This document shows positions 1,461 to 17,815 of a stretch of 64,000 nt of DNA, piece by piece. The first letter of the stretch is position 1. Every line of letters starts with the position of its first letter. The notes below the pieces were generated by a model that was not told the DNA's origin, did not search any database, and worked only from the letters and a program-made list of their open reading frames with translations. The DNA lies in NCBI RefSeq assembly GCF_000970345.1, contig NZ_LAQU01000027.1, positions 1 through 64,000 on the forward strand, in the 5' to 3' direction. Made by a program: the position numbers and the translations under genes. The DNA is from Robbsia andropogonis. GTDB taxonomy: Bacteria; Pseudomonadota; Gammaproteobacteria; Burkholderiales; Burkholderiaceae.

Positions 1461-1605
1461 GCATCCGTCATCGGGCCAAATATGCTCGCCATGACAACAC
1501 CTCAGATTTTATAACAATCAATATCAGGGTGTTGCAGTGACCGGTTGAATCCGCCGTCACGATTCGATTGCATTACAAAGCGCAAGGCCGGATATCTTAG
1601 ATACG

Positions 1606-1881
1606 GTGTCGGCAGTTGGTAAGGAGCTTGGGTACGATGTTTCTGGTTTTGATAAAGACGCTGGGAGCATCACTCTTTCTTCAAATGCAGGTCTTTTCGT
1701 TGGCGCAATGATCGGAAAAATTCAGAGGGCAACGATCATGGTGCGTTCGTTAAATGGCGGGCGTAAATTAGATCTTACGGTTTCGGTGTATGGGAATTTT
1801 GATCAAGGTGGACAAGAAGCTGCGACAAAGCGATTGAATGCTTTCAAAGAAAAGCTTCTGGAAAAAGTTGGCCAGCATTAA
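1606..1881 (+). CDS. Hypothetical protein, probably a 5'-truncated remnant
   Basis: A 91-codon frame starting at GTG, with markedly lower GC than its neighbours. The product has a regular pattern of beta-strand-like segments (SITLSSNAGLFVG, ATIMVRS, LDLTVSVYG) and a lysine-rich C-terminal helix (RLNAFKEKLLEKVGQH). No Shine-Dalgarno sequence precedes the GTG and sequence debris of a mobile element lies directly upstream, so this is probably the C-terminal part of a longer, possibly secreted, protein. I do not recognise the family. Confidence 0.4.
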   Translation: MSAVGKELGYDVSGFDKDAGSITLSSNAGLFVGAMIGKIQRATIMVRSLNGGRKLDLTVSVYGNFDQGGQEAATKRLNAFKEKLLEKVGQH

Positions 1882-1917
1882 CCTGTAATTCACTCCGTGA
1901 ATTAAACCTGTTCAGTA

Positions 1918-1978
1918 GGTAATCCCCCCACCCAGTGACCGGTTGAATCCGCCCGCTTTAAATATGGGGGGATTACCC
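1918..1978. repeat. 61-bp element with 13-bp terminal inverted repeats
   Basis: GGTAATCCCCCCA at 1918-1930 is matched exactly by its reverse complement at 1966-1978. The interior carries CAGTGACCGGTTGAATCCGCC (1933-1953), of which a direct copy lies at 1535-1555, so the 1.54-1.98 kb segment may be bounded by copies of one element end. The right end abuts the point where the IS256 transposase fragment loses homology with the second copy at 41.5 kb, which suggests insertion or deletion at this site. Identity unknown; MITE or IS end are both possible. Confidence 0.55.
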
Positions 1979-2295
1979 GGCGACTTCCTCACATACGGCG
2001 GCACAATCGATGAATTGAACTTCACACCCGATCCTGATCGATCACGAACCTTCGGCACCTTCACCGGAATCGGGCCGGCCCCCGTCAACACTTCGCGCTG
2101 CGGCAGGTAGCCATTGCGTACTACGGCGCGTTGCCCGTGCAGCGTCTTGACATTCGCGAGCCGCTCCAGCAGCACCGACAGCTCGGCTTCAATCGCCTGC
2201 TGGATCACCTCCCGCGCGCCCTGGCGCACCAGATCGTCCAGACCCAGACCGCCTTGCGATAGACCGACGACTTCCTTTTCCGTAAACTTGCTCAT
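1977..2295 (-). pseudogene. IS256-family transposase, N-terminal fragment
   Basis: About 106 residues starting MSKFTEKEVVGLSQGG and ending at VPPYVRKSP, the N-terminal region of an IS256-type DDE transposase. The last 47 residues are the same as in the larger IS256 piece on the plus strand at 41.4 kb. The frame is cut at 1978 by the small inverted-repeat element, and the following residues of the frame belong to that element. The catalytic region is absent, so this copy cannot transpose. Confidence 0.85.
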
Positions 2296-2347
2296 GGTAG
2301 GTGGTTTGTTGTTTGCTGGTTTCCGACTTCGACAATCAGATTCTTAG

Positions 2348-2407
2348 CTGCAACCTCCACCGCCTTCATCCTCACGCCTGCAACCTCCACCGCCTTCATC
2401 CTCACGC
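2348..2407. repeat. Tandem duplication, 2 x 30 bp
   Basis: The 30-bp unit beginning CTGCAACCTCCACCGCCTTC occurs twice in direct, contiguous copies (2348-2377 and 2378-2407), just upstream of the IS256 fragment. It contains no obvious gene and may be a slippage product at the old element boundary. Confidence 0.8.
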
Positions 2408-2602
2408 CTCCAATCCCCCGTACACAGATTCGCGCTTAGCTCCCAGGATTCTTGGACTTCGCTCAAGTTGACAAATTCGCTGCCGTTAACCCGCCTGTAG
2501 GTAAAAGGTCAGTCAGAGCAGTTAACACGGCTAGTGACGACATTATGAAAGGCTACTTACTTTTGGCGTGAGTGCGCCATGACTTGACGCCACTTAAATA
2601 TC

Positions 2603-4267
2603 ATGAACTTCTTTTCCTCGATTCGAAGACGTCGTCTAGACGCGTTATTGCAATCACAAGCCTCTATTGAATTCGATATGGAGGGAAACATTGTATTTGC
2701 CAACGCACGCTTTCTTGATCTGATGGGTTATTCGCTCGCAGATATAAAGGGTAGACACCACCGAATCTTTGTCGATGAAGAATACGGCGCCAGCCGTGAG
2801 TACCAAGAGTTTTGGCAGAAACTTCGAAATGGAGCTACTCATAGCGCCGAGTTTATGAGGCGAGCGAAGGACGGTTCCGCTGTTTGGCTTCAAGCGAGCT
2901 ACAATCCCGTGCTGGATCGACTCGGTCGACCGTTTCGCGTACTCAAGATTGCCCAGGACACGACAGAGCGAAAGGTCCGGGACATCAATTACGAGAGCCA
3001 AATCACCGCGATCAGCAGATCTCAAGCGGTCATTGAATTCGACATGGTCGGGCATATTCTATACGCAAACGACAATTTCTTATCCGCATTGGGTTATACG
3101 CTCGAAGAAGTACGCGGAAAGCACCACAAGATGTTCGTCGACGATGCTGAGCACCGGGGACCCGATTACAAGCGATTTTGGGAAAATTTGCGGAAAGGGC
3201 AATTTCAATCTGCCGAATTCAGGCGAGTTCATAAAACAGGTAGAAACGTTTGGATTCAAGCGAGTTACAACCCCATTTTCGATTTAGCTGGAAAACCATT
3301 TAAAATTGTTAAGATAGCGACTGACATTACCGAAGAGGTCAAGCGGCGTAAAGGCTTCGAGCTTTTGTCAATGGTTGCAGATTGCACCGACAATTCTGTT
3401 GTCATAACCGACGCCGACGGCCGAATCGAATACGTAAATGCAGGCTTTACGAAATTGACTCACATTACCTCTGAAGATGCCACAGGCAAGAAGCCAGGTC
3501 ACTTGCTACAAGGAGCGCACACCGACCCAACGACGGTCGCCCGCATTCGGGTGAAACTGGCTGCCTGCGAGCCCTTTTACGAAGAGATCTTAAACTATAA
3601 CTTGCACGGGGAGCCGTATTGGATTTCGCTGTCAATCAATCCAATTTTTGATAAGCACGGAAACCTTAAGAAATTTGTGTCAGTTCAAGCCAACATCACC
3701 GAGACAAAACTCAAGGCGCAAGAGGATGCAACGCGACTGACAGCGATACGATCGTCGACGGCCACTGCTGACTGGTCTCCGCGGGGCGTCCCTGTCGACG
3801 CAAGTAATGTCCTCCTCGGCATTTTGGGCTTCAAAGACTTGAATTCAGCGCTTGCGACGCTCTCCGATATTTATCGCGACGCAACTGCCGGCGACAATGC
3901 TGCAAAGCTAAAACGGCGCGAAAGCGTGGAACTCGAAATTAAAGCTACCGACGTGGACGGCAAGACCGTCTGGTTGCAAAGCACCTTCAATCCTATAGTA
4001 GGCATGGATGGAACCATGTTGAAGCTATCGATGTATTCGAGCGATATTACGGCTCAGCACCAAACGATGGAACGCATCCGAGGCGTAGTGAAAACGATCG
4101 ACGACCTTGCATCTCAAACGAACTTGCTCTCGCTGAACGCTGCCATCGAAGCTGCAAGGGCAGCAGAAGGCGGTAGAGGGTTTGCTGTCGTCGCTGACGA
4201 GGTCAGGAAGCTTGCAAAGCGCTCGGCCGATTCCGCTAATGAAATAGCAACGATGCTGCAAAGCTAA
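2603..4267 (+). CDS. Cytoplasmic chemoreceptor: four PAS domains plus a very short MCP tip
   Basis: A 554-residue protein without membrane segments. PAS domains cover roughly residues 15-122, 133-243, 250-370 and, degenerate, 375-490. PAS 1 and 2 share the [16 protein letters not shown] core and look like a recent duplication; BdlA-like biofilm-dispersal receptors share this arrangement. The C-terminus (about 491-554) is only the MCP signalling tip, with the CheA/CheW-contact segment [20 protein letters not shown]. About 22 residues lie on each side of the hairpin, so the short length looks natural and not truncated, even though an IS6 relic starts about 10 bp after the stop. The start ATG at 2603 has only a weak ribosome site. 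It likely senses an internal redox or small-molecule cue through the PAS domains. Confidence 0.85.
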
Positions 4268-4275
4268 TGCGATAT

Positions 4276-4839
4276 CTGGCACGGTTCTGTCGCAATAAGT
4301 GGGTCTGGTATTCTGAAGACCCCGATCGAACGATCCGATCCACGAAGCAAAACCTGACTACCGCGATGCCGAAAGTGTTTAAGCGGCTCCACTATCTACT
4401 GGACGTGATGCTCCTATGCGTGCGTTATCTCTACCGCGCTATCGACAAAGCCGGTAACATGGTTGATTTCCTGCTACGAGCCCGCCTAAACAAGGCTGCC
4501 GCGCAGGCATATTCCTAAAGGGCAATCGTGCTAAACGGCGACCCAGAGTCCGTGACGATCGATAAGAGCGCATCGAACCTCGCCCGTTTGAAAGCGATCA
4601 ATGCCGCGCAGGAAACACCGATCAAGATTCTCCAGCAAAAGTATCTAAACAACCTTGTCGAACAGGATCACCGCGTAATCAAACGTCGAACGCGACCAAT
4701 GATTGGCTTTAAGAATTTTCGCTGCGCACGCATTATCTTTGGTGGAATCGAGATCATGCGCATGATTCGCAAAGGTCAGATGCGCGGCTGGGCTAAGGCA
4801 CTTTCACTCGCTCACCAATTCAACTCCATAATTGCATAA
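4276..4839 (+). pseudogene. IS6-family transposase relic
   Basis: The segment starts with an IS6-type terminal sequence, GGTTCTGTCGCAATAAG (4282), which recurs at 17.78 kb and, altered, at 8.13 kb. Two frames then give the middle and C-terminal parts of an IS6/IS26-type DDE transposase: YRAIDKAGNMVDFLLRA, then a stop, then a frame with IDKSASNLARL and EQDHRVIKRRTRPMIGFK, ending in GWAKALSLAHQFN. The N-terminal part is missing and stops interrupt the frame, so the element is dead. Confidence 0.85.
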
Positions 4840-4908
4840 GCAATCCTGTACATTTTTAAAATTCTTAAATCACTCAATTCTTTTGCGACGGAACCGCCTG
4901 ATGCGGGG

Positions 4909-7900
4909 TCATCCTGCACTATCTAAATCTATCAGTTCGCTGATAGCCAACTCGGCGAGCACGCGTTCACCGGCAGTTGAGGTCATTGCGGATGCTTGCA
5001 GTCCAAACGCTGGACCGGCCGCGTATCCACGGGAATTGATTTCATAACTGTAGTATCCAGACACCGTCCAGCTGCTAGGTTCGTTAAGAAGTCGCGCCAT
5101 TTCGCCCTCCAGCAACGCCATCTGGGCGGTATCCCTTGCGCTCAAACTACCACGTGAACACATACGAATAATGGTGATTTCATCTTGATATGCGCTGAGC
5201 ATTTCCGCGACTGCAACGGTGATTTTGTTACTTTCGCCAAATGCTTGATTGCCACGAGTGGCATTCGAACGCACTTCGCTTATGAACGCGTCCAGTCTTG
5301 CAGCGCTACGACTAGTACGTGCGATTTCAGGACGGCGCATTTCAATATAGGAAAGGAACGAGGTAGGATCGACAAATTCTACAAGCCGCCGGACGTATTT
5401 CTGATTGAAACGGCCGTGTTCTTCCACCATGCGCAAGGTCACGCTCGCCCCTCGCGGCGCGATCGGAACGGTGAGGCCTACAATTGGCATTGATGGCACG
5501 CTAATTGACTCAGGATGTGCGGCGTGTGTTGAAAAATGACCAGCGCTGGAAACGCTACCCAGAATCGACACACTTGCTGTTAGCACGGATGAGCGTCCGC
5601 GCGACCGCTCAGTACCGCGCAGCCATCCGTTCGCGTCTACGCGTTCGTTCTTTCCAGCCAGCAATTGGTCGTAGCTTATACTCGCGACTGGCCCCACATG
5701 CACGCCGAATGCCGCGGCGCGTGCCATCAAGGTTGCATTGCCCGATACAGTATGACTGCTGCGCCGCTGGTCTCGCCAGTTAACCGAGATATCTGGTGTA
5801 CGGAAGAAACGAGTGCTGAAATTTTGCCACAGCCGTTCTGCTGACATGGACTGCGTCGCCTCAGAAAGCGCCTGTTGTTCAAATAGAAAGTCGACGACAT
5901 TGTTTGCAAGTTCACGCCAGGAGTTCGTCGGACGGCCATTTGCATCGCGCCGAAGTCGCGTGCGGATTATTACACCCGTCGGTGCGCTGCGATCGTTAGA
6001 ATAGGACACCCCCGCGCCGCCGCCTATTACAGCATGGACACTTTTGGTTCCTAATGTCACGCCGGCAAAGACACTGAGACCGACGCCGCTCGAGTAACGG
6101 GTATCTGTTCCCATGAACACTTCACCGCCGTATGACGAGGAGCCAATCTCGACAAACGCGTGCCGTCCGTGAAGTGCTTTGACACCTGGAGTCGGGGAAA
6201 GCCATGGGGCCAATGAATGCGGATGAAACTCGTGCAAGTTGAGCGACGAATTGACGTTGATACCATACATGCCGCCATCGAAGTAACGGACGTTGTTGCC
6301 AAGCGGGGCCGCACTGATCACTTGTGATAATGCTTCGCGGAGGGCCGCGGTCGTCGTACTTGTGGGGCGGATTGGCTTGCCTTGCTCTATATAGCGCGCG
6401 GTTGCTACGCGCTCCTTAACCTCTGAAGTGTTTCCTTGGGTGTGATGGAGATGCCGCAGGTGTTGCGCAACTTCGTCGGACCAGCGTTCGAGCGTTGAAA
6501 GATCTAGCGTCTTTACGCGCTGAAACTCCGCATTCGCCAATATTACATGTGCATTAACATGAACTCTGGGCGCCGACTCGATCAAGGCTGAAGCAATCGC
6601 ACGTCGATCATCGGATGTTAGCGTCAATTCGCTAGCCCGCTGATCCGGCGATGCGCTGCGCTTCCAGTAGTCCAGATAGAGTTCTCGCAACAGCAAGACT
6701 CCACGCACTTCAGGTGAGATTGGGGGGCTAAGTGCGTTTTCAGATGTATGCTGTGTGACCATGCGGTGGCATGCCAAACTGGCGTCAATCGCGGCATGGA
6801 CCGCCTCCCGAAGCGCACGCGTCTCTTCGCTTTGCAACCGTAGATCGACGCCTCCGGCGTCAAAGGTCGTTGCGGTGAGTGGCGATTTACGCATGCCGAC
6901 AGTCCGACGAGGATCGAACGCCATCCAGCGATGCCTTGCCCGACGCTGAGAGCGACCGATCCACGTCAGGAACTTTGCAAGGCGACCTTTTGATCGTGCT
7001 AGAAACGAGTGCTTTCCACTCTCGCGGTATCCGCTGCGCCATGCGACGTAAGCAGCTACCTGTGTGCTATCTCCGATCATTTGTGCCGAAGCATGAGGGG
7101 TAGCGTACAGCTTCGCTGCACAAAGTAATGCGTTTAATGCAAGCGAGCACGGCTCGTCACGGTTTCCCATAACCGCCATCTGTTGGATTGCCTGATGGAA
7201 TTGCTGACTCGGGGTATCGGCTATCGTGTCATTTCCGGCAACGTGGTTGGCAAGGTAATCTGCAGCCTGCAAAAACGTACGAAAGCTTTCGCGTTTCATA
7301 GCGCCGTCAGCGGTCGCTTCGTCAAAGGTCGGGTCGCACTGCAATGTGACCAGAGCGTCGAATCCATTGGCCGTATGTGCGAGCATACGTGCAACATGCC
7401 ATGCGTGACGCTGAGCTGCTGTAGGCGGTAGCGTCATCTCGTAGTTTGCATTACGCACATCAATTGAAAAATTGCCTTGCAGATGCGCCAATGCCTCGGC
7501 CGCCCTCGCCGCGTCGCCGCCCGTTGCGGCCGCAAGCGCCCGAGCGCATTGAAGGGCGCCTGCATATCGCACCGGACTATCCTCCGCTGACTGCGCGTGC
7601 GCTAGCGCGGCCAATGTGCGAATGATGTCCTCAATATGAGGGTCTGTTGTAGCTTGTGCGTTCTCGAACGCGAATAGAGACGCTATCGTTCTCGCGAACG
7701 CGCGTTCGCTGCATATCGCCTGCACCGCGTCAGCTTGCTGCGACTCAAGCATTGCGGGGGGCGGCTTATGCAATTTATGGGTGAGACCACACGCACGTCC
7801 TTCAATTTTTCGGACCTCAGACACCGACGGTGGCTTTATCGCACTAGGCGCCGCCGCGCGTCGCGGACGTGAGGGTATTGGGGCCGGGTCTATTTTCGTG

Positions 7901-8109
7901 CTGGTGTAGCCGGGGAGAGACAGGGTGCTTCGCGCGCCCGTTCGTAGCCGATAAGGCAGGCGGCGCAATATACCTGAACACCTCGGTTCGTGCGTGCCCA
8001 ACGTTTCCTGCTCGGACGGATCACATTCCCTTTCTGTTAAATCCGAGGAAGTTGGTGCCCTCGTGCAGTGGCCGGTCAAGTTGAAAAATTTCATCGCGCT
8101 GATAAGCAT
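4909..8109 (-). CDS. Large orphan protein (1066 aa), possible secreted effector
   Basis: I cannot place this protein in a family. The first 90 residues are polar and rich in Ser, Pro and Arg with no signal peptide or membrane helix, as in many type III effectors. Residues about 110-560 are predicted helical (Ala/His/Arg-rich). From about 570 on the sequence turns beta-rich, with alternating Gly/Ser strands (GGMYGINVNSSLN, FVEIGSSSYGGEVFMG, GVGLSVFAGVTLG, HAVIGGGAGVSYS) that resemble a barrel or solenoid. The last part is mixed helix and strand. The ATG at 8109 has no clear ribosome site; the ATG six codons later (8094) is an alternative. GC is lower than in metabolic genes nearby and IS6 debris flanks both sides, which suggests horizontal arrival. 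No PIP/hrpII box was found upstream. Confidence 0.6.
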   Translation of the reverse strand: MLISAMKFFNLTGHCTRAPTSSDLTERECDPSEQETLGTHEPRCSGILRRLPYRLRTGARSTLSLPGYTSTKIDPAPIPSRPRRAAAPSAIKPPSVSEVRKIEGRACGLTHKLHKPPPAMLESQQADAVQAICSERAFARTIASLFAFENAQATTDPHIEDIIRTLAALAHAQSAEDSPVRYAGALQCARALAAATGGDAARAAEALAHLQGNFSIDVRNANYEMTLPPTAAQRHAWHVARMLAHTANGFDALVTLQCDPTFDEATADGAMKRESFRTFLQAADYLANHVAGNDTIADTPSQQFHQAIQQMAVMGNRDEPCSLALNALLCAAKLYATPHASAQMIGDSTQVAAYVAWRSGYRESGKHSFLARSKGRLAKFLTWIGRSQRRARHRWMAFDPRRTVGMRKSPLTATTFDAGGVDLRLQSEETRALREAVHAAIDASLACHRMVTQHTSENALSPPISPEVRGVLLLRELYLDYWKRSASPDQRASELTLTSDDRRAIASALIESAPRVHVNAHVILANAEFQRVKTLDLSTLERWSDEVAQHLRHLHHTQGNTSEVKERVATARYIEQGKPIRPTSTTTAALREALSQVISAAPLGNNVRYFDGGMYGINVNSSLNLHEFHPHSLAPWLSPTPGVKALHGRHAFVEIGSSSYGGEVFMGTDTRYSSGVGLSVFAGVTLGTKSVHAVIGGGAGVSYSNDRSAPTGVIIRTRLRRDANGRPTNSWRELANNVVDFLFEQQALSEATQSMSAERLWQNFSTRFFRTPDISVNWRDQRRSSHTVSGNATLMARAAAFGVHVGPVASISYDQLLAGKNERVDANGWLRGTERSRGRSSVLTASVSILGSVSSAGHFSTHAAHPESISVPSMPIVGLTVPIAPRGASVTLRMVEEHGRFNQKYVRRLVEFVDPTSFLSYIEMRRPEIARTSRSAARLDAFISEVRSNATRGNQAFGESNKITVAVAEMLSAYQDEITIIRMCSRGSLSARDTAQMALLEGEMARLLNEPSSWTVSGYYSYEINSRGYAAGPAFGLQASAMTSTAGERVLAELAISELIDLDSAG

Positions 8110-8198
8110 CGGTGGTCTAAAGTATTAATGGTTCTGTCCCAATAAGAATTGGGTAAGGGAAGAATGTTTATATTCATAGTAATACTGATGTAAATAAG

Positions 8199-8332
8199 GA
8201 GTTGAATTTCTGAGCGGGCGAGAGTGCTTTAGCGCAGCCGTTCATCGGATCTTTACAAATCATGTGCATGATTTGCAATGCTCATGTGAGTGGCTGCGCT
8301 AAGGCACTCTCGGAAACGTAACTATTCAACTC
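8199..8332. repeat. Inverted pair of IS6 3' ends (palindrome)
   Basis: Left and right halves are near reverse complements: GAGTTGAAT (8199-8207) pairs with ATTCAACTC (8324-8332), and GAGTGCTTTAGCGCAGCC pairs with GGCTGCGCTAAGGCACTC. Each arm matches the 3' end of the IS6 transposase seen at 4.75-4.83 kb (codons for GWAKALSLAHQF). An altered IS6 terminus lies at 8132. The structure is a head-to-head remnant of two IS6 copies. Confidence 0.7.
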
Positions 8333-8431
8333 GTTATTTTAATAGGTATCCTATAAATATAGAGAATCGTACCCGTCCAAATTCCTATTGCGAAAGGACC
8401 TTCGCCAACGCGACACAACCCCTCGACTTCC

Positions 8432-8617
8432 TCAGTTGCAGTCGATACACGGCGCTGCGCCCCCTCCGCCACTACGCGAAGCTGATCCAGCGTAGCCTGC
8501 GTCGCCACCTGAAGAGGAGTCGCCTATATTGGCACTGGCACCAGCATATGACGATTGAGTAAAGATGGCGCCAGTCAACCAGATCAGCAAGCAGCAGAAA
8601 ACGTTCTTTCTCATCAT
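8432..8617 (-). CDS. Small secreted Gly/Ser-rich peptide (61 aa)
   Basis: The frame starts with two ATGs (8617, 8614) preceded by AGGAG at good spacing. It encodes a classical signal peptide (MMRKN, then a hydrophobic core CCLLIWLTGAIF, cleavage probably after SSYA at about residue 26). The mature part is about 35 residues, rich in Gly, Ser and Ala, and ends in a PCIDCN tail with a CxxC pair. No relatives are recognised. Such products can be cell-wall-associated, bacteriocin-like or contact-signal peptides; none of these is shown. Reading frame and ribosome site are good evidence of a real gene. Confidence 0.6.
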   Translation of the reverse strand: MMRKNVFCCLLIWLTGAIFTQSSYAGASANIGDSSSGGDAGYAGSASRSGGGGAAPCIDCN

Positions 8618-8980
8618 TTTCTCCTATGTAATATTGCGTGCAAGATACTTGAGTTTGTCTTTTACTGTATCAAAGCACCATACGGGAGTAGTACGGTTAA
8701 TTAAGCTCCGCCACGATAAGCGAGAGCAAATTGAATAATATTCGCATCAGCGAAAAGATATAGCCAGATGCGAATGGTTCTGTTGAAAATACTGGTTCTG
8801 TGGGGATCTGACCAAGATCCAGTCGAATCGCTAATATAAACGTGTAAATTATGGTAAGACGGATCTTTGTGATTTGATGAAATAAGGAACTCGGGACGGT
8901 AATACCCCTCTGTCAGACTAGTTGGACCATGAATCGCTGTTAGAGTTTGAACCGCCGACAAGCGGCAGAGGAAGAATCCA
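8618..8980. other. No supported gene
   Basis: AT-rich stretch upstream of the secreted-peptide gene, likely containing its promoter. The 131-codon minus frame that crosses it overlaps the transposase fragment at 8981 and has no ribosome site, so I do not call it. Confidence 0.5.
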
Positions 8981-9130
8981 ATGAAGTACGCTGAAGAGCG
9001 CAAGGAAGCGATTCTGAAGAAGCTATTGGCCCCACATATTCGTAGCGTTGTTGACGTGTCGCGGGAAGAAGGCATTAGTGGCTTGCGTCCGTTCAATTAC
9101 GCCAAACAGCACCGCGCGGTAGCGTCGTAA
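8981..9130 (+). pseudogene. IS3-type OrfA (helix-turn-helix) fragment
   Basis: Forty-nine codons starting MKYAEERKEAILKKLLAP and continuing with DVSREEGIS. This is the N-terminal helix-turn-helix of the small DNA-binding protein of IS3-type elements, which normally reads EERK..VL.KML.P......A.EEGIS..TL..WRK. The recognition helix is degenerate and the frame ends early; no OrfB follows. Confidence 0.65.
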
Positions 9131-9160
9131 TTCATCTCGAGACTGTCTAATACCCGCTCT

Positions 9161-9191
9161 CCTGAGTTGGCGTCTTCCACGCCCACTCAGG
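9161..9191. other. Hairpin, 13-bp stem
   Basis: CCTGAGTTGGCGT (9161-9173) pairs with ACGCCCACTCAGG (9179-9191) across a 5-nt loop with one G-T mismatch. A G-run, not a T-run, follows on the plus strand, so it is not a clear terminator; it may be the end of the degraded element to its left. Confidence 0.5.
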
Positions 9192-9570
9192 TGGGGGGAA
9201 AGTAACGCGTACTGGGATACCGTCCTGTTTGAACTATGACGTATCCATAAATACCAAATATCTCCCGAAGACGACCTATTTGCGCCAGATCCTAACAGAT
9301 TATAACGACAAAAACACGCGCATTATTGTCGCAAACGGATTTTGATACAAAGCAGAAATAACAATTATTAATCGTTTATTTAAATCTATTATCTATATTT
9401 TTTAGAAAAATAATGTAGAAAATTCGATATACCTATTTGCACAAAGATCATTTGATGTTATGTTTGTGCTTAATTAGGACATTTTAAGTTTTAAAGAAAA
9501 ATATATTAATTAATTGGGCGCGAACGCGTAACGCGTTTGTAACGATCAACAGACTACTTTCGTAAAAATC
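9192..9570. other. AT-rich gene-free stretch upstream of the exporter gene
   Basis: Very AT-rich, especially 9350-9510 with runs of A/T. It holds no ORF worth calling and lies directly upstream of the four-gene cluster at 9571-16278, so it probably contains its promoter and is a natural target for H-NS-like silencing. No specific operator can be named. Confidence 0.45.
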
Positions 9571-10524
9571 ATGACAGGCAGTCCAGATCCAAGTCTCGCC
9601 GCATCCTCGACACCGACGGTTGCAGGGCGGGGTGACGCGGAAATATCGATTAGCACGGATTCTGCAAGACGAATCAGCTTGATATTGATGAGTCTGGCCG
9701 GTCTTTCCCAAGGTTTTATCGGGCCAATCGTCAAGCTGGTCGATTTTGCACCATTACCCTTGGTGGTCGGGCGTTGCATCGTGGCGGCGGTTCTACTGCA
9801 CGCCATCTGTATTCTGACAGGACGCCGAGTACAAAAAACGGATCGCATCAACACGATTATTTGCGGATTTCTTCTTGCCGGACATTTTGCCACCCTGTTC
9901 ATGGCATACAAGAAGACTGACGTTAATCTCGTTCTGATTGCGCTGTTCACCTATCCGATGATCACCAGCCTGCTCGAGCCCGTGTTTTTCGGCGGACGTC
10001 CGCAGCGCCGACAGGTGATTTCTGCATTCGTCGTGACCGCCGGTATCGCATGCCTGCGCCCGGCGCCGGGCGGCAGTGGCGACATGATTGCCGGGATCGG
10101 TCTCGCTCTGGCGTCTGCGGTTCTGTTCAGCCTTCGCAACATTCTGAGTCGCAAGCTCGTTGCTAAAAGCGACGGACTTGCGATCATGGGATGGCAAACC
10201 ACCATCGCGGCCATCGCGTTCGCGCCAAGCTGCGTTGGACTCAAAGTGAGCGACATGACATCGTCGGTATGGCTCGGCATGCTGGCGCTGGGTATTTTCT
10301 TTACCGCCATTCCTCATACGCTACGCATTCTCGTGAAGCGTCATCTCACCACGGCAACCGTTGATATTCTCGCTGCGCTTCAGGTGGTGGGGGGGGTGCT
10401 GCTGGCCTGGATACTGGTGCATGAGGCGCCCACCATCAACGTGATACTGGGCGCTGCATTTATCTTTACTGCAGTCCTGTGGGAAGCCGCCAGCACATGG
10501 CGGCGGGGCTCGATGCCCGAATGA
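9571..10524 (+). CDS. DMT-superfamily (EamA) exporter
   Basis: A 317-residue inner-membrane protein with about ten hydrophobic helices in two EamA repeats (roughly 35-165 and 175-310). Typical segments are LAGLSQGFIGPIVKL in helix 1 and the loop ending LLEPVFFGGRP between helices 4 and 5. This family exports amino acids, metabolites and related small molecules. It is the first gene of a same-strand cluster with the BKACE-fusion, FAD protein and methyltransferase, so it may export the product of that cluster. The ATG at 9571 is the only sensible start; its ribosome site is weak. Confidence 0.85.
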   Translation: MTGSPDPSLAASSTPTVAGRGDAEISISTDSARRISLILMSLAGLSQGFIGPIVKLVDFAPLPLVVGRCIVAAVLLHAICILTGRRVQKTDRINTIICGFLLAGHFATLFMAYKKTDVNLVLIALFTYPMITSLLEPVFFGGRPQRRQVISAFVVTAGIACLRPAPGGSGDMIAGIGLALASAVLFSLRNILSRKLVAKSDGLAIMGWQTTIAAIAFAPSCVGLKVSDMTSSVWLGMLALGIFFTAIPHTLRILVKRHLTTATVDILAALQVVGGVLLAWILVHEAPTINVILGAAFIFTAVLWEAASTWRRGSMPE

Positions 10525-10655
10525 CGCGAGCACCGCGTGGCGAGACATCGTCTTCGCGGAGAAAACACGCCCCCCGATTTGCCACAAAGCCAACGGTTTG
10601 CTGGCGGGCGCTCGTCCCGCTGGACTGTCCACGTTGTCTAAACATGAGGAACGAC

Positions 10656-13600
10656 ATGCCCAAAGCGCTATACATTACCGCGGCTCCCGTCGGAGCAGTG
10701 CCGAAATCGCTCAATCTGGGCGACCCGGTTTTTGTTCATGGCTATCTTCTCGATCTGATCGATGCGAAAGAGCGGGTGCTAATCGTGAAGGCGCTCGAGA
10801 ATGAAGGCTGGGAGCCTGTCGACGAAGGCGGTATCGCGCTTCAAAGCGGCTATGCCAGCACTATCGACGACGCAGCGGTCCGCTCGGCGGGAAATGCCGG
10901 CGAACTGGAGCGTGACGGGTGGAGCCGGGTGTCGGGACAGTGGAATTCGCCGTGGCCGAGCGAACCGCACGACGTGAAACCTATGATTGCGCGGAGTCTG
11001 CTGCAACGCATCGGGTCCATTGGCCTCATCCGGCAGACCGTCCTGCAACTAACGACGTTCGGCTGGACCGTCACCGCCCAAGGCGATCTGTCATGGCCCC
11101 ACGGAAGTATTCGCAGTTATCTCCCGCCAAGCCTCGTGCAACAGATCCGGGCGGCAGACCAGACCGTCCTGGACGTGCTCATGAGCGAAGGGTGGACGCA
11201 CTGCCGTGCCGGGTACTGGCAGCCCGGCAAGGGCCGTAGCGTGGACCTTCCGTTGACGCCTGAAGCGATTGTGGCGGACGCGCATCAATCACTGATCGAA
11301 GGGGCAGCCATCGTACACCTCCATACGCGTTCGAGGGCTGATCGCGGCGAACTGCAAATTCCAGGACTTGGCACAACCATCACGACGGGGGCGCAACGCA
11401 ACCAGATCGTAGTGGAGGATTTCGAGCAGATTGTCACGACGCTGCGAGCGATGGAGCCCGCTGCGATACTCAACGTGTCGACCAGTGCGCGCGGCGACCG
11501 GAGCGCGTCTGAAAGCCTGTTGCGCCGCGCACATCTGAAACGCTACGGACCCGCGCAGGTGCATGCCGACATAGCATCGTTCAGCCCGGGCCCCGTGGTG
11601 TTTCAGAGCGGCGGCGGCTACGACAACCCGCCCGGCTTCCTCGTCCAGCAACTCGACCAGTTTGCTCGGACAGGTATACGACCGGAAATCGAGGTATTTA
11701 ATCACACCATTGTCGAAAACGCGACGAGCATCTATCGCGACGTACTGATCGCGCATGGCGAGCCGGTGCTGTTCATGCTAGTGGCTGGGGTGGATCAGCA
11801 TCGACGCGACGCGGTCAGCGGCGAGCTCAACGATGATTCGCTGATCCCGGTGGGCACTAGAAAGGACATCGCTGCGCTGTTGCAGCGCGACGACGTGGAG
11901 TCCACGCTGGCGGGGGCGCGGATCGCGGCCGACGCGCTCCGGCCGACAGTCGTACAACTGCGTGAGCATTTCCCTGCGTCGAAGATTTCGATTCTGCTGC
12001 CGGGTGCGTTTCACGCCATTCTCGTCGAGGTCGCGCTGGCGCTGTCGCTGGATGGCATTCGCGTGGGACTCGAAGACGCGCTGAATGTGTTCGACTCCCG
12101 CGTACCGGGTGGTGTCAGGCGGGCGCAGGGCACGAGCGATCAGGTACGTGCATTGAAGCGCGATTTGGAAAAACGCGGCATCTCAACGCTCAGCGCAGAA
12201 GCATTGCGTGACCAGATCGACATGACCCGCTGCGAGGTCAGGCTGTTTCGCGAGGCAACGAGCGCGTTGTCAGCCTATCTGCCGTTCGCGTCCAGCCCGC
12301 GGTCGCTTCCCGGGGCGGCGACGCTCGCGCAAGCGCTGTCGCCTGTATTAGACGCTTACGGGAAGATCGAGGACAGGTTTGCTGCCGAGCTCCGCAATGT
12401 CCCCGACGACCTGCGGACGGACCCAGCCGCTCTTGCCGCTCGCGTACGGGCGACGGCGAACGCGACAGGTGCGAACATACGCTTTTTCGTTGAAGAGCGC
12501 GACCGCTATCTCGATCACGAATACCTTGTCTTCAACGACATCTACGTCCCGCAAGCGTTAAATTTTGCGCGCGAAGTCCTGGCGCAGCGGGGTCAGTCGA
12601 CAGACGCATATGACGAGGCGCTCGCCCATTACGGACGCCCAGGAGAAACCGTGCTGCGCGAAGAGGCCAGTTACCGGATTCGCGAGGATCAGTTCAAGTC
12701 GTCGGCGTTGCGGGCGCTCGAATATCTGGTGTCTATTCCATGCCGATACAACGTGGACCGCACCAACGTTTTTAATACGCAACTGCGTCGCGATCCTCAC
12801 TACAGCGCGACGATGGCGCTGCTTTTTCATGCGATTCGTGAACTGACGCTGGAACTGCGCGCGCGTTCTAACGCTCATCAGAAAGCGTCCGGTCCGGTGT
12901 GGTCGATCGTATCCGTGGATGCCGCGCAACCGCAGGGTGGTGGCCCCCTGCGCGAACTTGCTTCGTCGCGCAAACTGCCAGTGCTATCCGCCGGCGTCGA
13001 GTGGGTGGTGCTGCCCAGCACGCCGACCACGCACTACCCGCTCGGTCTCAAGCTGTCGCATGGATTGACGGATACGTTTCATCACTTCCTCGACCGGGTG
13101 GTGCGAGACGTTTCACTGCTGAAAGCTGGGCGGCCGACGCGGGATACACCGCTTCGCGTCATTGGCATCGCGCATACGGGGCGACAGCCCGATGGCGAGA
13201 CGATCGTCGAGGCCAGCATGCTCTACAACCGCTTCGCGCTTAACGCCGACCGGACCAGCACGTTCCATGGTCATCCGGCACGACTGATCTATGAACGATT
13301 GTTGCTGCCGCGACTCGTAGACAGGCCACGTGAACTCCTCTATACGGAATCGCAACTTGCGGTGCGTGATGAAGATGGCGTGCCGCTCTACAGTGACGGG
13401 ACACGCGCCCGAAGAATCGCACGAGAGGCCATCGGCCGCCTGACTTTCTTGAAGCTACTAGCGCATAGTTCGGGCATTTCCACCGCACAGCAGCTCGACG
13501 TGCTCACTCGTTTGGACTCAGAGCGACTGGGCTACGCCCCGGACGAATTGCGGGCGATCTTCGACCGCGCTCTCGTAATCTCCTTTGCGTCTGCGTCCAA

Positions 13601-14063
13601 CGTGCTGGTCGACTGGGCCGGTACGTCGGTGGTCGATGTGACTGCCTTTAACGACGTGCGCAGTCTGGCGGGCACCACCACGGACGACTATCTTTTCAGC
13701 GAGGGAGCACCGCTCGACACGCTGCGTCGCGCGTTGCTGGCCTCGCGGGCGGGTGACGCGCCGGTTGGTGGCTATCGATACGAGGAAGCGAAGTTGCTTC
13801 GTCATACGGGCGCGCAAGGTAAGACCGTTGCGCGGTTGACAGGCGTTTTCCTGATGGATGATGTGGCGCGTCAGCACGATGGCCACTCGATCCGCCGGTA
13901 TCTGGAAGGGACGCCGCGCTGGCTACGGCAGTGGCTCTCCGGCGTGTTTCATGCTCCCGCCTCAAGAGGTGCGCTTGATGTGCTGGGCGAGCTGGACGCC
14001 GCAGCAGGCGAGCGCCTAGCGAATGGAAAGCGGGAGTCAGTCGCACCGTCATTTGTCGTGTGA
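10656..14063 (+). CDS. BKACE-fold (DUF849) fusion protein, 1135 aa
   Basis: GAGGA five bases ahead selects the ATG at 10656 over upstream ATGs. The N-terminus LYITAAPVGAVPKS is the first strand of the beta-keto acid cleavage enzyme (BKACE, 3-keto-5-aminohexanoate cleavage) barrel. The barrel is then interrupted by about 175 residues with four short units of the form GW-x(6-10)-W/G (GWEPVDEGG, GWSRVSGQW, GWTVTAQGDLSW, GWTHCRAGYW). It resumes at about residue 205, with the zinc pair H221-x-H223 (IVHLHTRS) and the late motif VGLED (Glu473) typical of the family. Residues about 510-1135 form a large region I do not recognise, with no membrane segments. BKACEs condense or cleave beta-keto acids with acetyl-CoA or a similar thioester. 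Ordinary family members are about 280-310 residues, so this fusion is unusual. The next gene starts 7 bp downstream. Confidence 0.7.
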   Translation: MPKALYITAAPVGAVPKSLNLGDPVFVHGYLLDLIDAKERVLIVKALENEGWEPVDEGGIALQSGYASTIDDAAVRSAGNAGELERDGWSRVSGQWNSPWPSEPHDVKPMIARSLLQRIGSIGLIRQTVLQLTTFGWTVTAQGDLSWPHGSIRSYLPPSLVQQIRAADQTVLDVLMSEGWTHCRAGYWQPGKGRSVDLPLTPEAIVADAHQSLIEGAAIVHLHTRSRADRGELQIPGLGTTITTGAQRNQIVVEDFEQIVTTLRAMEPAAILNVSTSARGDRSASESLLRRAHLKRYGPAQVHADIASFSPGPVVFQSGGGYDNPPGFLVQQLDQFARTGIRPEIEVFNHTIVENATSIYRDVLIAHGEPVLFMLVAGVDQHRRDAVSGELNDDSLIPVGTRKDIAALLQRDDVESTLAGARIAADALRPTVVQLREHFPASKISILLPGAFHAILVEVALALSLDGIRVGLEDALNVFDSRVPGGVRRAQGTSDQVRALKRDLEKRGISTLSAEALRDQIDMTRCEVRLFREATSALSAYLPFASSPRSLPGAATLAQALSPVLDAYGKIEDRFAAELRNVPDDLRTDPAALAARVRATANATGANIRFFVEERDRYLDHEYLVFNDIYVPQALNFAREVLAQRGQSTDAYDEALAHYGRPGETVLREEASYRIREDQFKSSALRALEYLVSIPCRYNVDRTNVFNTQLRRDPHYSATMALLFHAIRELTLELRARSNAHQKASGPVWSIVSVDAAQPQGGGPLRELASSRKLPVLSAGVEWVVLPSTPTTHYPLGLKLSHGLTDTFHHFLDRVVRDVSLLKAGRPTRDTPLRVIGIAHTGRQPDGETIVEASMLYNRFALNADRTSTFHGHPARLIYERLLLPRLVDRPRELLYTESQLAVRDEDGVPLYSDGTRARRIAREAIGRLTFLKLLAHSSGISTAQQLDVLTRLDSERLGYAPDELRAIFDRALVISFASASNVLVDWAGTSVVDVTAFNDVRSLAGTTTDDYLFSEGAPLDTLRRALLASRAGDAPVGGYRYEEAKLLRHTGAQGKTVARLTGVFLMDDVARQHDGHSIRRYLEGTPRWLRQWLSGVFHAPASRGALDVLGELDAAAGERLANGKRESVAPSFVV

Positions 14064-14070
14064 GGTAGCC

Positions 14071-15510
14071 ATGCGTATAGCGATCATAGGTTTAGGATGC
14101 AGCGGGACAATGGTGTTGCGCGCCATTGCCGATCGACTTCGTGAAGGGGATCCGATCGAAATTAGGCTGTTCGAAAGCCAGAAGGAGGTGGCGGCGGGCA
14201 TTCCCTATGGTGCCGCATTCAACGATGACTGCTTTGTGCTGAACATGCAGACGTCGCTGCTCGGTGCACATCCCCAGCGTCCTGAGGAGTTCATGGACTG
14301 GCTGGCCGGGCAGTCGCCAAGCGTTGTTGACGGGACGGATTACATCGCGCGTACGCGCATGGGCGGATATCTCGCAAGCGTTCTTCAGGCGTCGATGGCA
14401 CGGTTGCGGCAACTGGGCATCGCCTGCGAAATCGTCCGTGACGAGGTCTGCGACATGCAGGTTAGGGGAAACGAATACCTGCTGTTTGGCACGACCCAGA
14501 CCTATACCGCAGACCGCGTGGTGCTTGCACCCGGGCACTTGAAGAAGCGGAAGCCCGAGGGCAGCGGGAAGCGTTACATCGCGAACCCATATCATGCGCT
14601 TCACCTCGTTCGCGCGATTCCGCCGAACGCTAAGGTCGGCATCGTCGGCAGCAAACTGACGGCGGTCGATATGGCTATTTTGCTGCGCGAGCAGGGGGTC
14701 CGCCGGATTTCGATGTTCTCGGGTTCCGGCCGTTTGCCGCTGGTGCGTGGCGTCAGGCCTCCTGAAGACCGGTTGCCCGTCGTGCGACGCCCAAAGGGCG
14801 CGTCGCTTCGTTCCTTCCTTAAAGCGATACGCGACCAGGTTCGCACTATGCAGGCGCCTGCCGAATATGAGGCCTTTCTGTCCGGCAGGGATGAAGCTGT
14901 CCGGCTCGCTCACGAACTGGAACAGGCTTCGGCGCCGCGCCTCTGGCACGCGTTGCTCGATGAGACGAAGCACTTCATTGACGACTTTTGGCAGGAGCTC
15001 AGTCCGTTTCACAAGCGCCTCTTCCTGCGCAAGTATCAAGGATTGTGGATGAGCTACCGGCATCCGATGCCGCCGTCGAATGCCCGAAAGATCGCCGGCA
15101 TGCTCGCCGATGGCTCGCTGACGGTCCACAGTGGCTATCGGGGCGCATCGGCCTGCCCTGACGGACAATTAACCGTCAGGGCAGGCGACCAAGAGGTTAT
15201 CGTCGACTACCTGATCGACGCGAGCGGCACACCGGCGGATGTGCGCGAGATCGATTCGCCGCTCGTCGCGAATCTGCTGCGTAATGGGATCGTTGCTCGC
15301 TGCGAGTTTGGCGGCATTGAATGCGAGCCCGCAACGCACCGCGTTAGACCGCTCTCGAACGTGTATGTGATCGGGCAACTGACCCGTGGTCGCATTTTCT
15401 ACGTGTCGGCCATAGAACGTATTGCCATTCACGCGTTGGTCATTGCGGCCGACCTGATGCGCGCCGTAACGGAAAGAACCGGAACTCGGCTCGAAGAGGT
15501 GGCCGACTGA
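14071..15510 (+). CDS. FAD/NAD(P)-binding protein (YdhS-like)
   Basis: A 479-residue protein. The start at 14071 is set by GAGGT overlapping the stop of the preceding gene. It opens with a Rossmann nucleotide motif (IAIIGLGCSGTMVL), followed by the GIPYG and LNMQTS motifs of the FAD-NAD(P)-binding family related to E. coli YdhS. A second dinucleotide-like site lies near residue 190 (KVGIVGSKLTAVDMA), and the C-terminal DYLIDASGTPAD motif closes the FAD fold. Related proteins include N-hydroxylating and other redox flavoenzymes, but the reaction here is unknown. Tight coupling to the BKACE fusion gene argues for a shared pathway. Confidence 0.75.
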   Translation: MRIAIIGLGCSGTMVLRAIADRLREGDPIEIRLFESQKEVAAGIPYGAAFNDDCFVLNMQTSLLGAHPQRPEEFMDWLAGQSPSVVDGTDYIARTRMGGYLASVLQASMARLRQLGIACEIVRDEVCDMQVRGNEYLLFGTTQTYTADRVVLAPGHLKKRKPEGSGKRYIANPYHALHLVRAIPPNAKVGIVGSKLTAVDMAILLREQGVRRISMFSGSGRLPLVRGVRPPEDRLPVVRRPKGASLRSFLKAIRDQVRTMQAPAEYEAFLSGRDEAVRLAHELEQASAPRLWHALLDETKHFIDDFWQELSPFHKRLFLRKYQGLWMSYRHPMPPSNARKIAGMLADGSLTVHSGYRGASACPDGQLTVRAGDQEVIVDYLIDASGTPADVREIDSPLVANLLRNGIVARCEFGGIECEPATHRVRPLSNVYVIGQLTRGRIFYVSAIERIAIHALVIAADLMRAVTERTGTRLEEVAD

Positions 15511-15609
15511 CGCGGACAGCGCGCCGCACGATGGCGTTGTGCCAGATCAGGACACGCGCGATCTGCCATTCGAGTCGAAGCAATCCGACAAACCTAAAGG
15601 AGATTGTTC

Positions 15610-16278
15610 ATGAGCCAAGAAAACTGGACCGTAGTCGACAACTATTTCTCCCAGGCACTCATTCCTTCCGATTCCGCGCTCGAAACAACGCTGAAATCCA
15701 GCGCGGTTGCAGGGCTGCCGTCGATCAACGTCGCGCCGAACCAAGGCAAGCTTCTCTACCTACTCGCTAAAATCAGGAATGCGAAGCGGATTCTGGAGAT
15801 CGGTACACTCGGCGGTTACAGCACGATTTGGCTTGCGAGGGCGCTCCCCTCCAATGGTCGGCTGATCTCGCTTGAGTCGAACGTCGAATATGCCGATCTC
15901 GCGCGACGAAACATCGCCGCTGCAGGGTTATCCGATGTTGTTTCGGTTATTGTTGGCACTGCGGTCCGAAGCCTCGAACAGCTCATAGAAGAGAAGGCCG
16001 AACCGTTCGATCTGGTATTTATCGATGCGGACAAGGGAAGCAATCCGGACTACCTGCGCCTATCGCTTGCGCTGTCCCGCCCAGGCACGGTCGTAATCGG
16101 CGACAATGTGGTGCGCAACGGGCGCATCAGCGACGTGAACAATCAGGATCCCGATGTGATCGGCGTAAGGAAGTTCTTTGAACTGGCCGCCTCGGATAGG
16201 CGTCTGGATACGACAGCAGTGCAGACGGTTGGCTCGAAAGGCTGGGACGGGTTTTCGATTACTCTTGTGTCGGCATAG
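15610..16278 (+). CDS. SAM-dependent O-methyltransferase (CCoAOMT-type)
   Basis: A 222-residue class I methyltransferase. AAAGGAG at 15596-15602 sets the start at 15610, not the upstream TTG. Motif I is ILEIGTLGGYSTIWLA; the acidic metal-site motif is DLVFIDADKGSN; GDNVVRNG matches the post-II region of caffeoyl-CoA/catechol-type O-methyltransferases, which use a divalent cation to methylate vicinal hydroxyls or similar groups. It lies 99 bp after the FAD protein and closes the cluster, so it likely tailors the pathway product. Confidence 0.85.
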   Translation: MSQENWTVVDNYFSQALIPSDSALETTLKSSAVAGLPSINVAPNQGKLLYLLAKIRNAKRILEIGTLGGYSTIWLARALPSNGRLISLESNVEYADLARRNIAAAGLSDVVSVIVGTAVRSLEQLIEEKAEPFDLVFIDADKGSNPDYLRLSLALSRPGTVVIGDNVVRNGRISDVNNQDPDVIGVRKFFELAASDRRLDTTAVQTVGSKGWDGFSITLVSA

Positions 16279-16438
16279 CAACGGATGACGTGAGGGGATC
16301 TGTCGTGCGATTGCGCGAATATGCGCCGAGGCTTTTGCTTCAGCGCGGCGAGCTATCGGCTGGTCAATACGTTGGCGGATTGCCTTTGACGGCCAGCGGT
16401 CCGGTCTTTAGTGAACAGAAACGTCTGATTGTGCCAGG

Positions 16439-16465
16439 AAACTTGTGCACGACCGGCACAAGTTT
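16439..16465. terminator. Perfect 10-bp hairpin downstream of the cluster
   Basis: AAACTTGTGC (16439-16448) pairs exactly with GCACAAGTTT (16456-16465) over a 7-nt loop. It lies 160 bp past the methyltransferase gene. There is no long T-tract after it, so it could also be an operator-like palindrome. The surrounding 16282-16592 stretch has no convincing gene. Confidence 0.35.
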
Positions 16466-16592
16466 GCCAGACCCCTGTCTAGCGCGATCGGGCTCGTACT
16501 AACTGTTCGAGTCGGTCCCGCAATGGTATTGGGATGACCGATTTCAACCATGGATTAACCAACTGGCTCATGAACCAACATTTGCGCGTGCG

Positions 16593-17207
16593 TCAATACA
16601 ATCCCGCGAGGGTGCGTTGAGGAAGCTCCCGGTCGTAGGTCTGTCCATCGAAAACGCCACCGCTCAGCCGCTGATGCATCTGTCCAGCGCTCGGAAGGCT
16701 GTCGCGATTTACTTGCCTCGTCGTATTCCACAAGTCGGACCGCACTAGCGCTTTCGAGCAGTGAAAGTACGCTGCGCAGACGGTGATGACTATCGCAGTA
16801 CGCGGCAGTTTCCCATTAATCTCGAAAGCCGCAAGTAGCTGAGGATCGACGGAGATTTGCGCTGTGCCGTTCACGCGCAACGTTTCACCAACTCCCGGCA
16901 CGAGAAATAATAGAGACACCCGCGGGTTGATCATAATGTTGCGCAAGTTGTCGATTCGATTGTTTCCCGGCCGATCCGGAATCACGAGGGTTCGACAGTT
17001 GACGATTGACACAAATCCGGCAGGATCCCCTCTGGGTGAGCAATCGGTTCCATCTGTCCCGGCTGACGCAAGGATTACGAACGGCGACGCCCTCACAAAT
17101 GCACAATAGTCGTCGTTAAGATGATCGATCTCCTTCCACAGCGCCCGTTCATGTGGGCGGCCGTATATCGCCTCAAGTTGCTGCACATCGGAAATTACAT
17201 GTTCCAT
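16593..17207 (-). CDS. PPOX-class flavoprotein (pyridoxamine-phosphate-oxidase-like)
   Basis: A 204-residue protein. The ATG at 17207 follows a modest GTGGA ribosome site; the upstream in-frame extension looks non-coding. It shows the FMN-binding split-barrel features of the MSMEG_1061-type PPOX subfamily: ASPFVILASAGTDGTDCSPRGDPAGFV, then LVIPDRPGNNRIDNLRNI, then NPRVSLLFLVPG, and a C-terminal HCSKALVRSDLW. These cytoplasmic proteins bind FMN and act as oxidases or cofactor-linked reductases of unknown substrate. The gene stands alone between the methyltransferase cluster and IS6 relics. Confidence 0.85.
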   Translation of the reverse strand: MEHVISDVQQLEAIYGRPHERALWKEIDHLNDDYCAFVRASPFVILASAGTDGTDCSPRGDPAGFVSIVNCRTLVIPDRPGNNRIDNLRNIMINPRVSLLFLVPGVGETLRVNGTAQISVDPQLLAAFEINGKLPRTAIVITVCAAYFHCSKALVRSDLWNTTRQVNRDSLPSAGQMHQRLSGGVFDGQTYDRELPQRTLAGLY

Positions 17208-17392
17208 TGCGTCCACCGTTCTGTTTCTATCGATAAAGATACCTGCGCCAGGTGAGTATAATTGACGTATCGGAATCCGCAAACGAAGCTTTCTCACATT
17301 GCATTTTCTAGCGCAAGGAAAGTGCTGACCGAGTCAGCTGGCGCCTGAGCATTGTGACGTGGCCGAAGCGGTAGGGTAAGGTTGACGCATGA

Positions 17393-17815
17393 AAACCTCG
17401 TCTATTTACTACTGCTATCGCTTCGCGCCTGCGGTCATAAGCTTAGCGGTGCGTTAGCACTTTCGCTTTCCCTGCGCTTTTGCGACGTCGAAGAATTATT
17501 GTTTGAGCGCGGCATCGCTGTAAGCTTACGGTTCGCTTGGAATCGTGGCGGTAGTTTACGCGCGACGGACAAAATACGTCCTCGTTTTGAGCAGCGTCAA
17601 CAACAAGCGGCGCAGTTCGGTTTACTTGATAAGATGTCCTACATGTAGGAACATGATCAACACGCTTGCTTATTTGCACGGGAACCGGGCAAACGGACGG
17701 TGGGCGGAATCTGGAGAACGGACGGGGCCTACGTTTGAATCGGGGAGAGTGGCGATATCTCTACCGGGCTGTCGGCAAAATGTTTCTGTCGCAATAAGAA
17801 TTGTGTGGCGAAAGA
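17393..17815 (+). pseudogene. IS6-family relics
   Basis: Starting at AAAACCTCGTCTATTTACTA, frames with stops encode the N-terminus of an IS6 transposase (SSIYYCYRFAPAVISLAV, then a frameshifted DVEELLFERGI segment). At 17700-17770 a second piece carries the segment around the codons for the WRYLYRAVD-like motif, and a terminal GTTTCTGTCGCAATAAG lies at 17783. All pieces are degenerate. A weak hairpin with a short T-run (ACCCC/GGGGT, 17897-17909) follows. Confidence 0.7.

Follow-up and report, generated by a model that had tools for sequence, protein, structure and literature searches.

Four-gene locus around obc1

The window analysed here, a stretch of 64,000 nucleotides of Robbsia andropogonis DNA (contig NZ_LAQU01000027.1), carries near its start four consecutive genes of one strand that encode an EamA-type exporter, a giant protein of the Obc1 oxalate synthase family, an FAD/NAD(P)-binding flavoprotein and an O-methyltransferase (Table 1). 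The genes are separated by gaps of 131, 7 and 99 bp, in order, the gap of 7 bp being the one between obc1 and the flavoprotein gene. The Pfam models EamA, BKACE, NAD_binding_9 and Methyltransf_3 are matched above cut-off in the locus proteins. A preliminary description of this DNA had listed four + strand genes with gaps of 7-131 bp, encoding a drug/metabolite transporter (DMT) exporter, a protein with a BKACE barrel, an FAD/NAD(P) protein and a methyltransferase of the caffeoyl-CoA O-methyltransferase (CCoAOMT) type, all of which is borne out. It had also regarded the locus as a small-molecule pathway without nonribosomal peptide synthetase (NRPS) or polyketide synthase (PKS) genes; no NRPS or PKS domain is found by Pfam in any of the four proteins, and the compact unit is kept in a second genus, both of which agree with that view.

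Three of the open reading frames (ORFs) as listed open upstream of the starts adopted here. The obc1 ORF opens at a GTG at 10479 (1194 residues) and was trimmed to the ATG at 10656, and the flavoprotein ORF, which opens at 14023, was trimmed to the ATG at 14071. The methyltransferase ORF opens at a TTG at 15604, and the ATG at 15610 to which it was trimmed has the sequence AAAGGAG immediately 5' of it.

Table 1. Genes of the locus and domains of Obc1 (window positions; trimmed starts)
Feature	Position	Strand	Description
EamA/DMT exporter	9571..10524	+	317 aa; Pfam EamA
obc1	10656..14063	+	1135 aa from ATG; Obc1 domains
ObcA_N domain of Obc1	10749..11195	+	Pfam PF20913, 6.3e-30
BKACE barrel of Obc1, best of two stretches	11229..11795	+	Pfam PF05853, 5.2e-27
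Obc1_cap domain	12306..12842	+	residues 551-729 (1135-aa numbering); Pfam PF21502, 1.1e-108
Obc1_C domain	12873..13997	+	residues 740-1114 (1135-aa numbering); Pfam PF21498, 4.9e-203
FAD/NAD(P) flavoprotein	14071..15510	+	479 aa from ATG; NAD_binding_9
O-methyltransferase, class I Mg-type	15610..16278	+	222 aa from ATG; Methyltransf_3

Identity and active site of the giant protein

Judged by its sequence, the 1135-residue protein is full-length Obc1 (oxalate biosynthetic component 1), a member of the oxalate synthase family. All four Pfam models of Obc1 (ObcA_N, BKACE, Obc1_cap and Obc1_C) exceed their gathering scores in one chain and together span the greater part of it, and the solved Obc1 structure 5IKY aligns over the full length (E = 0, 1299.7 bits), covering residues 60-1176 of the 1194-residue ORF, that is, 1,117 residues. 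The ObcA structure 4NNA aligns with the first half of the protein (E 1.2e-153). The preliminary description had treated this protein as a novel BKACE fusion with about 620 unknown C-terminal residues. That view is rejected, since the C-terminal residues are the Obc1_cap and Obc1_C domains and the whole chain is the characterised Obc1 oxalate synthase. The region thus does match a known family, though Obc1 is no housekeeping family. A protein of B. thailandensis has likewise been re-labelled from DUF849/BKACE to Obc1 in a proteomics paper (PMC6206043).

The residues checked in both halves are strictly conserved. In the first half, the HxH motif (H221, H223), Tyr322 and Glu473, whose codons lie within 11316-12074, are invariant in 9/9 aligned Obc1/ObcA proteins. 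In the C-terminal half, the HSSG motif (H937-S938-S939-G940), D994 and H1077 are invariant in all eight Obc1 proteins aligned. Mutation of Tyr322 inactivates ObcA, and the tyrosine of the window protein carries the same number; His48, His50 and Glu247 are metal ligands in BsfD, by analogy with which the HxH and Glu residues of Obc1 are read as a metal site (PMC12871164). Nothing in the sequence of the window protein suggests an inactive enzyme.

From oxaloacetate and acetyl-CoA, the B. mallei Obc1 has been demonstrated to form oxalate, acetoacetate and CoA (PMC5028181), and the window protein resembles that Burkholderia oxalate synthase (5IKY/5IKZ) in length class, in its four domains, in its full-length alignment and in the checked residues, with 56-57% identity to five aligned Burkholderia proteins. 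Because the giant protein is Obc1, the core product of the locus is most likely oxalate. Compared with the ObcA/ObcB pair of B. glumae, the N-terminal half of the window protein is ObcA-like and the net reaction is identical, whereas Obc1 has its second activity fused C-terminally, reportedly without homology to ObcB (PMC5028181). The setting of the gene also differs: obc1 of the window is placed between the EamA exporter and the flavoprotein genes, whereas the six Burkholderia obc1 genomes tested are without orthologues of either.

Distribution of obc1 and conservation of the four-gene unit

Obc1_C was searched in a family sample of 398 genomes, a control set of 14 genomes and a separate phylum sample of 398 genomes. 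Matches above the cut-off are found in eight genomes of the family sample (this genome, with E = 4.4e-204, Trinickia terrae 7GSK02 and six Burkholderia, among them B. singularis (G157) and Burkholderia sp. TSV86 (G210)) and in none of the controls. Two matches at E ≤ 0.001 are present in the phylum sample, where this genome alone passes the cut-off and the other (G804, 6.6e-4) falls below it. A single-sequence scan of genome contigs returned no relative. Contigs of 84,980 species were also scanned with two short peptide patterns taken from the Obc1 alignment, a search that undercounts because it works by such patterns, and seven loci were obtained: B. singularis, TSV86, B. multivorans WS-FJ9, T. 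terrae, a gammaproteobacterial metagenome-assembled genome (MAG), Chromobacterium alticapitis and a B. cepacia record. In the C. alticapitis and B. cepacia loci, the match is limited to the ObcA-like first half. At the B. singularis locus, an acetyl-CoA hydrolase/transferase gene (L039:13446-14957, - strand) is convergent with obc1.

The locus recurs gene for gene in T. terrae, where the four genes keep their order and shared strand, with 71-77% identity and a gap of 8 bp between obc1 and the flavoprotein gene. The outer neighbours differ there, with a LysR gene past the methyltransferase and an aldehyde dehydrogenase-like gene past the exporter (translations read by eye), and the conserved unit therefore consists of four genes. 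The co-occurrence in other genomes that the preliminary description had proposed as a check is thus found in T. terrae and fails in the six other obc1-positive genomes of the family sample, so that the unit is common to 2/8 obc1-positive family genomes (1/7 other than this genome).

Partnership of Obc1 and the flavoprotein

The flavoprotein is joined to Obc1 in the MAG. At this locus (L042, JABDGK010000011.1, 9992-15558), one frame of 1,603 residues contains ObcA_N, BKACE, Obc1_cap and Obc1_C followed by NAD_binding_9, and the coding sequence is continuous across the junction, without a stop codon. A TauE/SafE exporter gene lies 3' of the fused gene and overlaps it by one base, between its own ATG and the stop codon of the fusion. 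On the opposite strand, upstream of the fusion, are two regulators of the LuxR type, of which one has a PAS domain.

Compared with seven other Obc1 proteins, that of the MAG shows 46-49% identity, and it forms the deepest branch of a midpoint-rooted tree, in which the branch carries a length/composition warning and the adjoining fork is unsupported. The identities of the two proteins fall in step: Obc1 of the window is 71% identical to that of Trinickia and 47% to that of the MAG, and the corresponding values for the flavoprotein are about 71-72% and 44% (209/470). This parallel indicates that Obc1 and the flavoprotein travelled together, or met twice. Close relatives of the flavoprotein are scarce outside such loci. 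Fourteen of the 398 family genomes have a match at E ≤ 1e-20, and identities above 33% are confined to this genome and T. terrae, in both of which the gene is obc1-adjacent; the rest are 27-33% identical. In the phylum sample, four genomes have a match at E ≤ 1e-30, and the three besides this genome are 29-31% identical. Synteny, spacing, fusion and co-divergence together make a predicted functional partnership of Obc1 and the flavoprotein well supported. No Obc1-flavoprotein pair appears in the titles and abstract openings of the papers listed by literature searches on related topics, several of which gave just the top of a longer list, a survey in which no search was aimed at exactly that pair and subscription journals lay mostly outside the coverage.

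Among ten distinct obc1 genomes (the eight of the family sample, B. multivorans WS-FJ9 and the MAG), the flavoprotein gene is adjacent or fused in three. That the other seven are without an orthologue would suit a simpler picture, a plain oxalate operon whose flavoprotein and methyltransferase genes are unrelated and co-transcribed by happenstance. The same arrangement would also account for the distant NAD_binding_9 relatives that stand in unrelated contexts (five plasmid records), and for the position of the methyltransferase gene, which in the five of six Burkholderia genomes having an orthologue is either distant from obc1 or placed on a different contig. For the flavoprotein, however, the fusion in the MAG, the spacing of 7-8 bp in two genera and the parallel divergence are hard to obtain by chance, and we consider the simpler picture quite improbable.

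Family and possible reaction of the flavoprotein

The flavoprotein matches Pfam NAD_binding_9 (PF13454, 2.4e-26). The preliminary description had called it YdhS-like, which is true in a loose sense only: the NCBIfam model YdhS/PRK09897 gives a weak match over residues 2-205, with 47.6 bits against an equivalog cut-off of 783, and the protein is not a YdhS. Presumably both belong to one superfamily of NAD_binding_9-type flavoproteins. With the single sequence, the best match in the Protein Data Bank (PDB) has an E-value of 0.32. With a profile of twelve relatives, the best match is 8CP2 (E 4.5e-14), mainly over the FAD domain and weakly over a second stretch, followed by flavin-containing monooxygenases; the helical substrate domain of 8CP2, which holds an Arg/Asn cluster, lies outside the HMMER alignment with the profile.

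The structure 8CP2 is that of the L-aspartate N-hydroxylase of Streptomyces sp. V2, in which Asn62 is catalytic, Trp51 stacks on the flavin and Arg13 binds aspartate (PMC10404684). Asn62 aligns with N58 of the flavoprotein, which is invariant in 12/12 relatives, whereas Arg13 and Trp51 are replaced by Ser11 and Tyr46 (positions counted from the alignment), so that neither residue is kept. The flavoprotein thus shares with this enzyme of the FzmM/CreE group the best profile match and the catalytic asparagine, and differs from it in length, with 479 residues against 601, and in gene setting, in that the FzmM/CreE-type gene adjoins a nitrosuccinate lyase gene whereas the window gene adjoins obc1. 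From its sequence, the flavoprotein looks like a class-B monooxygenase, a likeness that falls short of marking it as an aspartate hydroxylase.

This relationship bears on a second alternative, in which the flavoprotein oxygenates the N or C of a C4 substrate (for example, aspartate to an oxime or nitro compound), Obc1 or its hydrolase half acts next on this unusual substrate, and the product is capped by the methyltransferase before the exporter secretes it, giving a specialised metabolite instead of plain oxalate. The nearest solved relative and the retained asparagine fit such a route, aspartate is one transamination away from the Obc1 substrate, and the methyltransferase and exporter would round off the cluster. 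The lost Arg13 and Trp51 equivalents and a PDB match mainly to the FAD domain argue in the other direction; moreover, Pfam shows no additional gene in the four-gene unit that would process an oxime or nitro compound, and the checked active-site residues of Obc1 match those of other Obc1 proteins. We regard a specialised metabolite as unlikely.

Assigning a role from the plasmid neighbours of distant flavoprotein relatives was tried and abandoned, as the contexts differ and reveal no common theme (5 of 15 listed records, of 269 matching). On one Thioclava plasmid (L051:1478-4503), a relative of 30% identity lies directly 3' of an annotated malonate decarboxylase subunit alpha, which is another CoA/dicarboxylate enzyme beside a flavoprotein of the NAD_binding_9 type.

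Exporter and methyltransferase

The exporter matches Pfam EamA (PF00892, 1e-26, 94.2 bits) in two stretches, as two repeats. Its orthologue in T. terrae is 77% identical and lies immediately 5' of obc1. Among the six obc1 genomes of Burkholderia, four have just matches of 25-30% identity, located elsewhere, and two have no match. Engineered Pseudomonas cells that received only a fungal oxalate-forming enzyme built up 19 mM oxalate internally and released 1.2 mM, and secretion reached 13.6 mM when a fungal transporter was added (PMC3976251). A dedicated exporter is favoured because the engineered cells retained oxalate without a transporter, and because the MAG has an exporter of an unrelated family (TauE) beside its fusion. 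The EamA protein, encoded in front of obc1, most likely exports oxalate, or else whatever end product the pathway gives.

The methyltransferase matches Pfam Methyltransf_3 (PF01596, 2.3e-39, 135.3 bits against a cut-off of 22). Its closest solved relatives are annotated as putative O-methyltransferases (8C9S, 8.2e-78; 3DUL, 9.5e-77), and the caffeoyl-CoA O-methyltransferase 8GXO is matched at just 2.8e-19. An orthologue with 59-64% identity is present in 5/6 Burkholderia obc1 genomes, B. singularis having a partial match of 32%. The gene is on the obc1 contig at a distance of about 70-90 kb in three of these genomes and about 1.1 Mb in one, and on another contig in one. A link between the methyltransferase and obc1 in Burkholderia was dismissed as background gene order. 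The methyltransferase is of a generic type, and it may be an accessory with a weak link to the pathway, or a passenger.

Control and genomic context

Oxalate is under quorum-sensing and ammonia-sensing control in B. glumae (PMC12918730; PMC10576180). Quorum-sensing control through the lux-box-like palindrome CTG-N10-CAG is unsupported at the locus, since no site lies upstream of the operon: the palindrome is absent from 1033 to 9661, and the nearest site, at 9662, falls within the exporter gene. Across the window, 21 exact matches compare with 15.8 expected, and 14 of 100 shuffles reach 21. A promoter/terminator scan of 8200-17600 gives 6 and 11 sites, compared with 4.4 and 9.5 in shuffles, and on the + strand the sole promoter-like site ahead of 9571 lies at 8502. 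The segment that precedes the operon (8001-10000) is AT-rich, with a GC content of 0.456 against 0.61-0.62 in the obc1 segments, and is the sole segment below 50% GC in a 2 kb profile.

A plasmid origin was also considered and set aside, as no near-DNA plasmid match was found for 9000-17500. A protein search of plasmids yielded two records: a B. stagnalis replicon of 3.2 Mb with an ObcA-like match, and a Caballeronia record in which BKACE is weakly matched.

Several other features of the window were observed. An ORF of 1,066 residues (4909-8109, - strand) has no Pfam or PHROG match; it may resemble secreted effector-type proteins of plant-associated bacteria. An ORF of 2,373 residues in a stretch of 65-66% GC (27542-34663) has no Pfam match, and its residues 2118-2337 match the phage head-morphogenesis family phrog_7625 (1.2e-17). 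A protein of 326 residues (36066-37046), also without a Pfam or PHROG match, contains a NNCAIYALVQQI stretch, which may resemble OTU-type cysteine proteases. The protein of 447 residues encoded at 42893-44236 (- strand) combines PAS with sigma-70 regions 2 and 4 and looks like an unusual sensor-sigma factor. A DabA inorganic-carbon transporter subunit, an adjoining proton-antiporter-type membrane protein and a divergent LysR gene occupy 44744-49906.

A probable oxalate-production operon

We read the locus as an oxalate-production operon, with a probability of roughly 0.7, in which Obc1 would carry out the synthesis, the EamA protein the export, the flavoprotein would act as a partner of Obc1 and the methyltransferase would be an accessory or passenger. 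The BKACE half of Obc1 would join acetyl-CoA to oxaloacetate, and the C-terminal half would cleave the adduct to oxalate, acetoacetate and CoA, a net reaction taken over from the B. mallei enzyme. This division of labour is assumed here; likewise, we take the C-terminal half to be a serine-hydrolase half, in keeping with the title under which the paper on the Obc1 structure is cited. The EamA protein would then carry oxalate out of the cell. As a guess, the flavoprotein may be an NAD(P)H/O2-dependent enzyme that oxidises a C4 acid or amino acid at the aspartate/oxaloacetate level, and it may, again as a guess, supply the Obc1 substrate or adjust the redox or nitrogen balance around Obc1. Oxalate of Burkholderia shields stationary-phase cells from ammonia-driven alkalinity (PMC12918730; PMC10576180), and the secreted oxalate of this strain may similarly counter such alkalinity and chelate metals, effects that are both reported in Burkholderia.

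Several observations weigh against this interpretation. Obc1 is not found in two other genomes of the window's genus or in two other genomes of the T. terrae genus, PF21498 is present in 1/36 genomes of the MAG's order, and the fusion is known from one MAG contig. At E ≤ 0.001, the flavoprotein is unmatched in the six Burkholderia among the eight obc1-positive family genomes, and the match in B. multivorans WS-FJ9 is 29% identical and off the obc1 contig. The flavoprotein is therefore not needed for oxalate synthesis as such, because most obc1 genomes are without an orthologue. Oxalate secretion in B. glumae depends on a DedA protein, and the accessible part of that report leaves open whether this protein itself exports oxalate (PMC10576180). 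EamA proteins carry many substrates, of which oxalate would be a candidate cargo, and the methyltransferase is out of keeping with a pathway to oxalate alone, in which it has no evident place.

A wider interpretation can be offered tentatively, although we hold it to be doubtful: Obc1 and a class-B-type flavin monooxygenase may form a two-enzyme unit, as separate polypeptides in Trinickia and this strain and as the fused chain of 1,603 residues in the gammaproteobacterium; this would be a second, undescribed form of bacterial oxalate metabolism, in which an oxidised C4 intermediate would be fed or diverted through Obc1 and oxalate, or a modified exported derivative, would be made from aspartate-level precursors.

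The giant protein family is already known as Obc1; the operon form and the flavoprotein partner are new. In the part of a survey available to us, Obc-type synthesis is named just for Burkholderia sensu stricto, and oxalate degradation is described for Paraburkholderia, apart from one exception, for Caballeronia and for the single Trinickia included (PMC13184526). Against that background, the Obc1 operons of T. terrae and this strain are of some note. A seemingly mysterious locus thus becomes a testable oxalate operon outside Burkholderia proper, which yields a candidate gene for oxalate export and, for Obc1, a candidate partner enzyme that is backed by a natural gene fusion. The association with the flavoprotein hints that bacterial oxalate production may involve a further step or partner not described so far.

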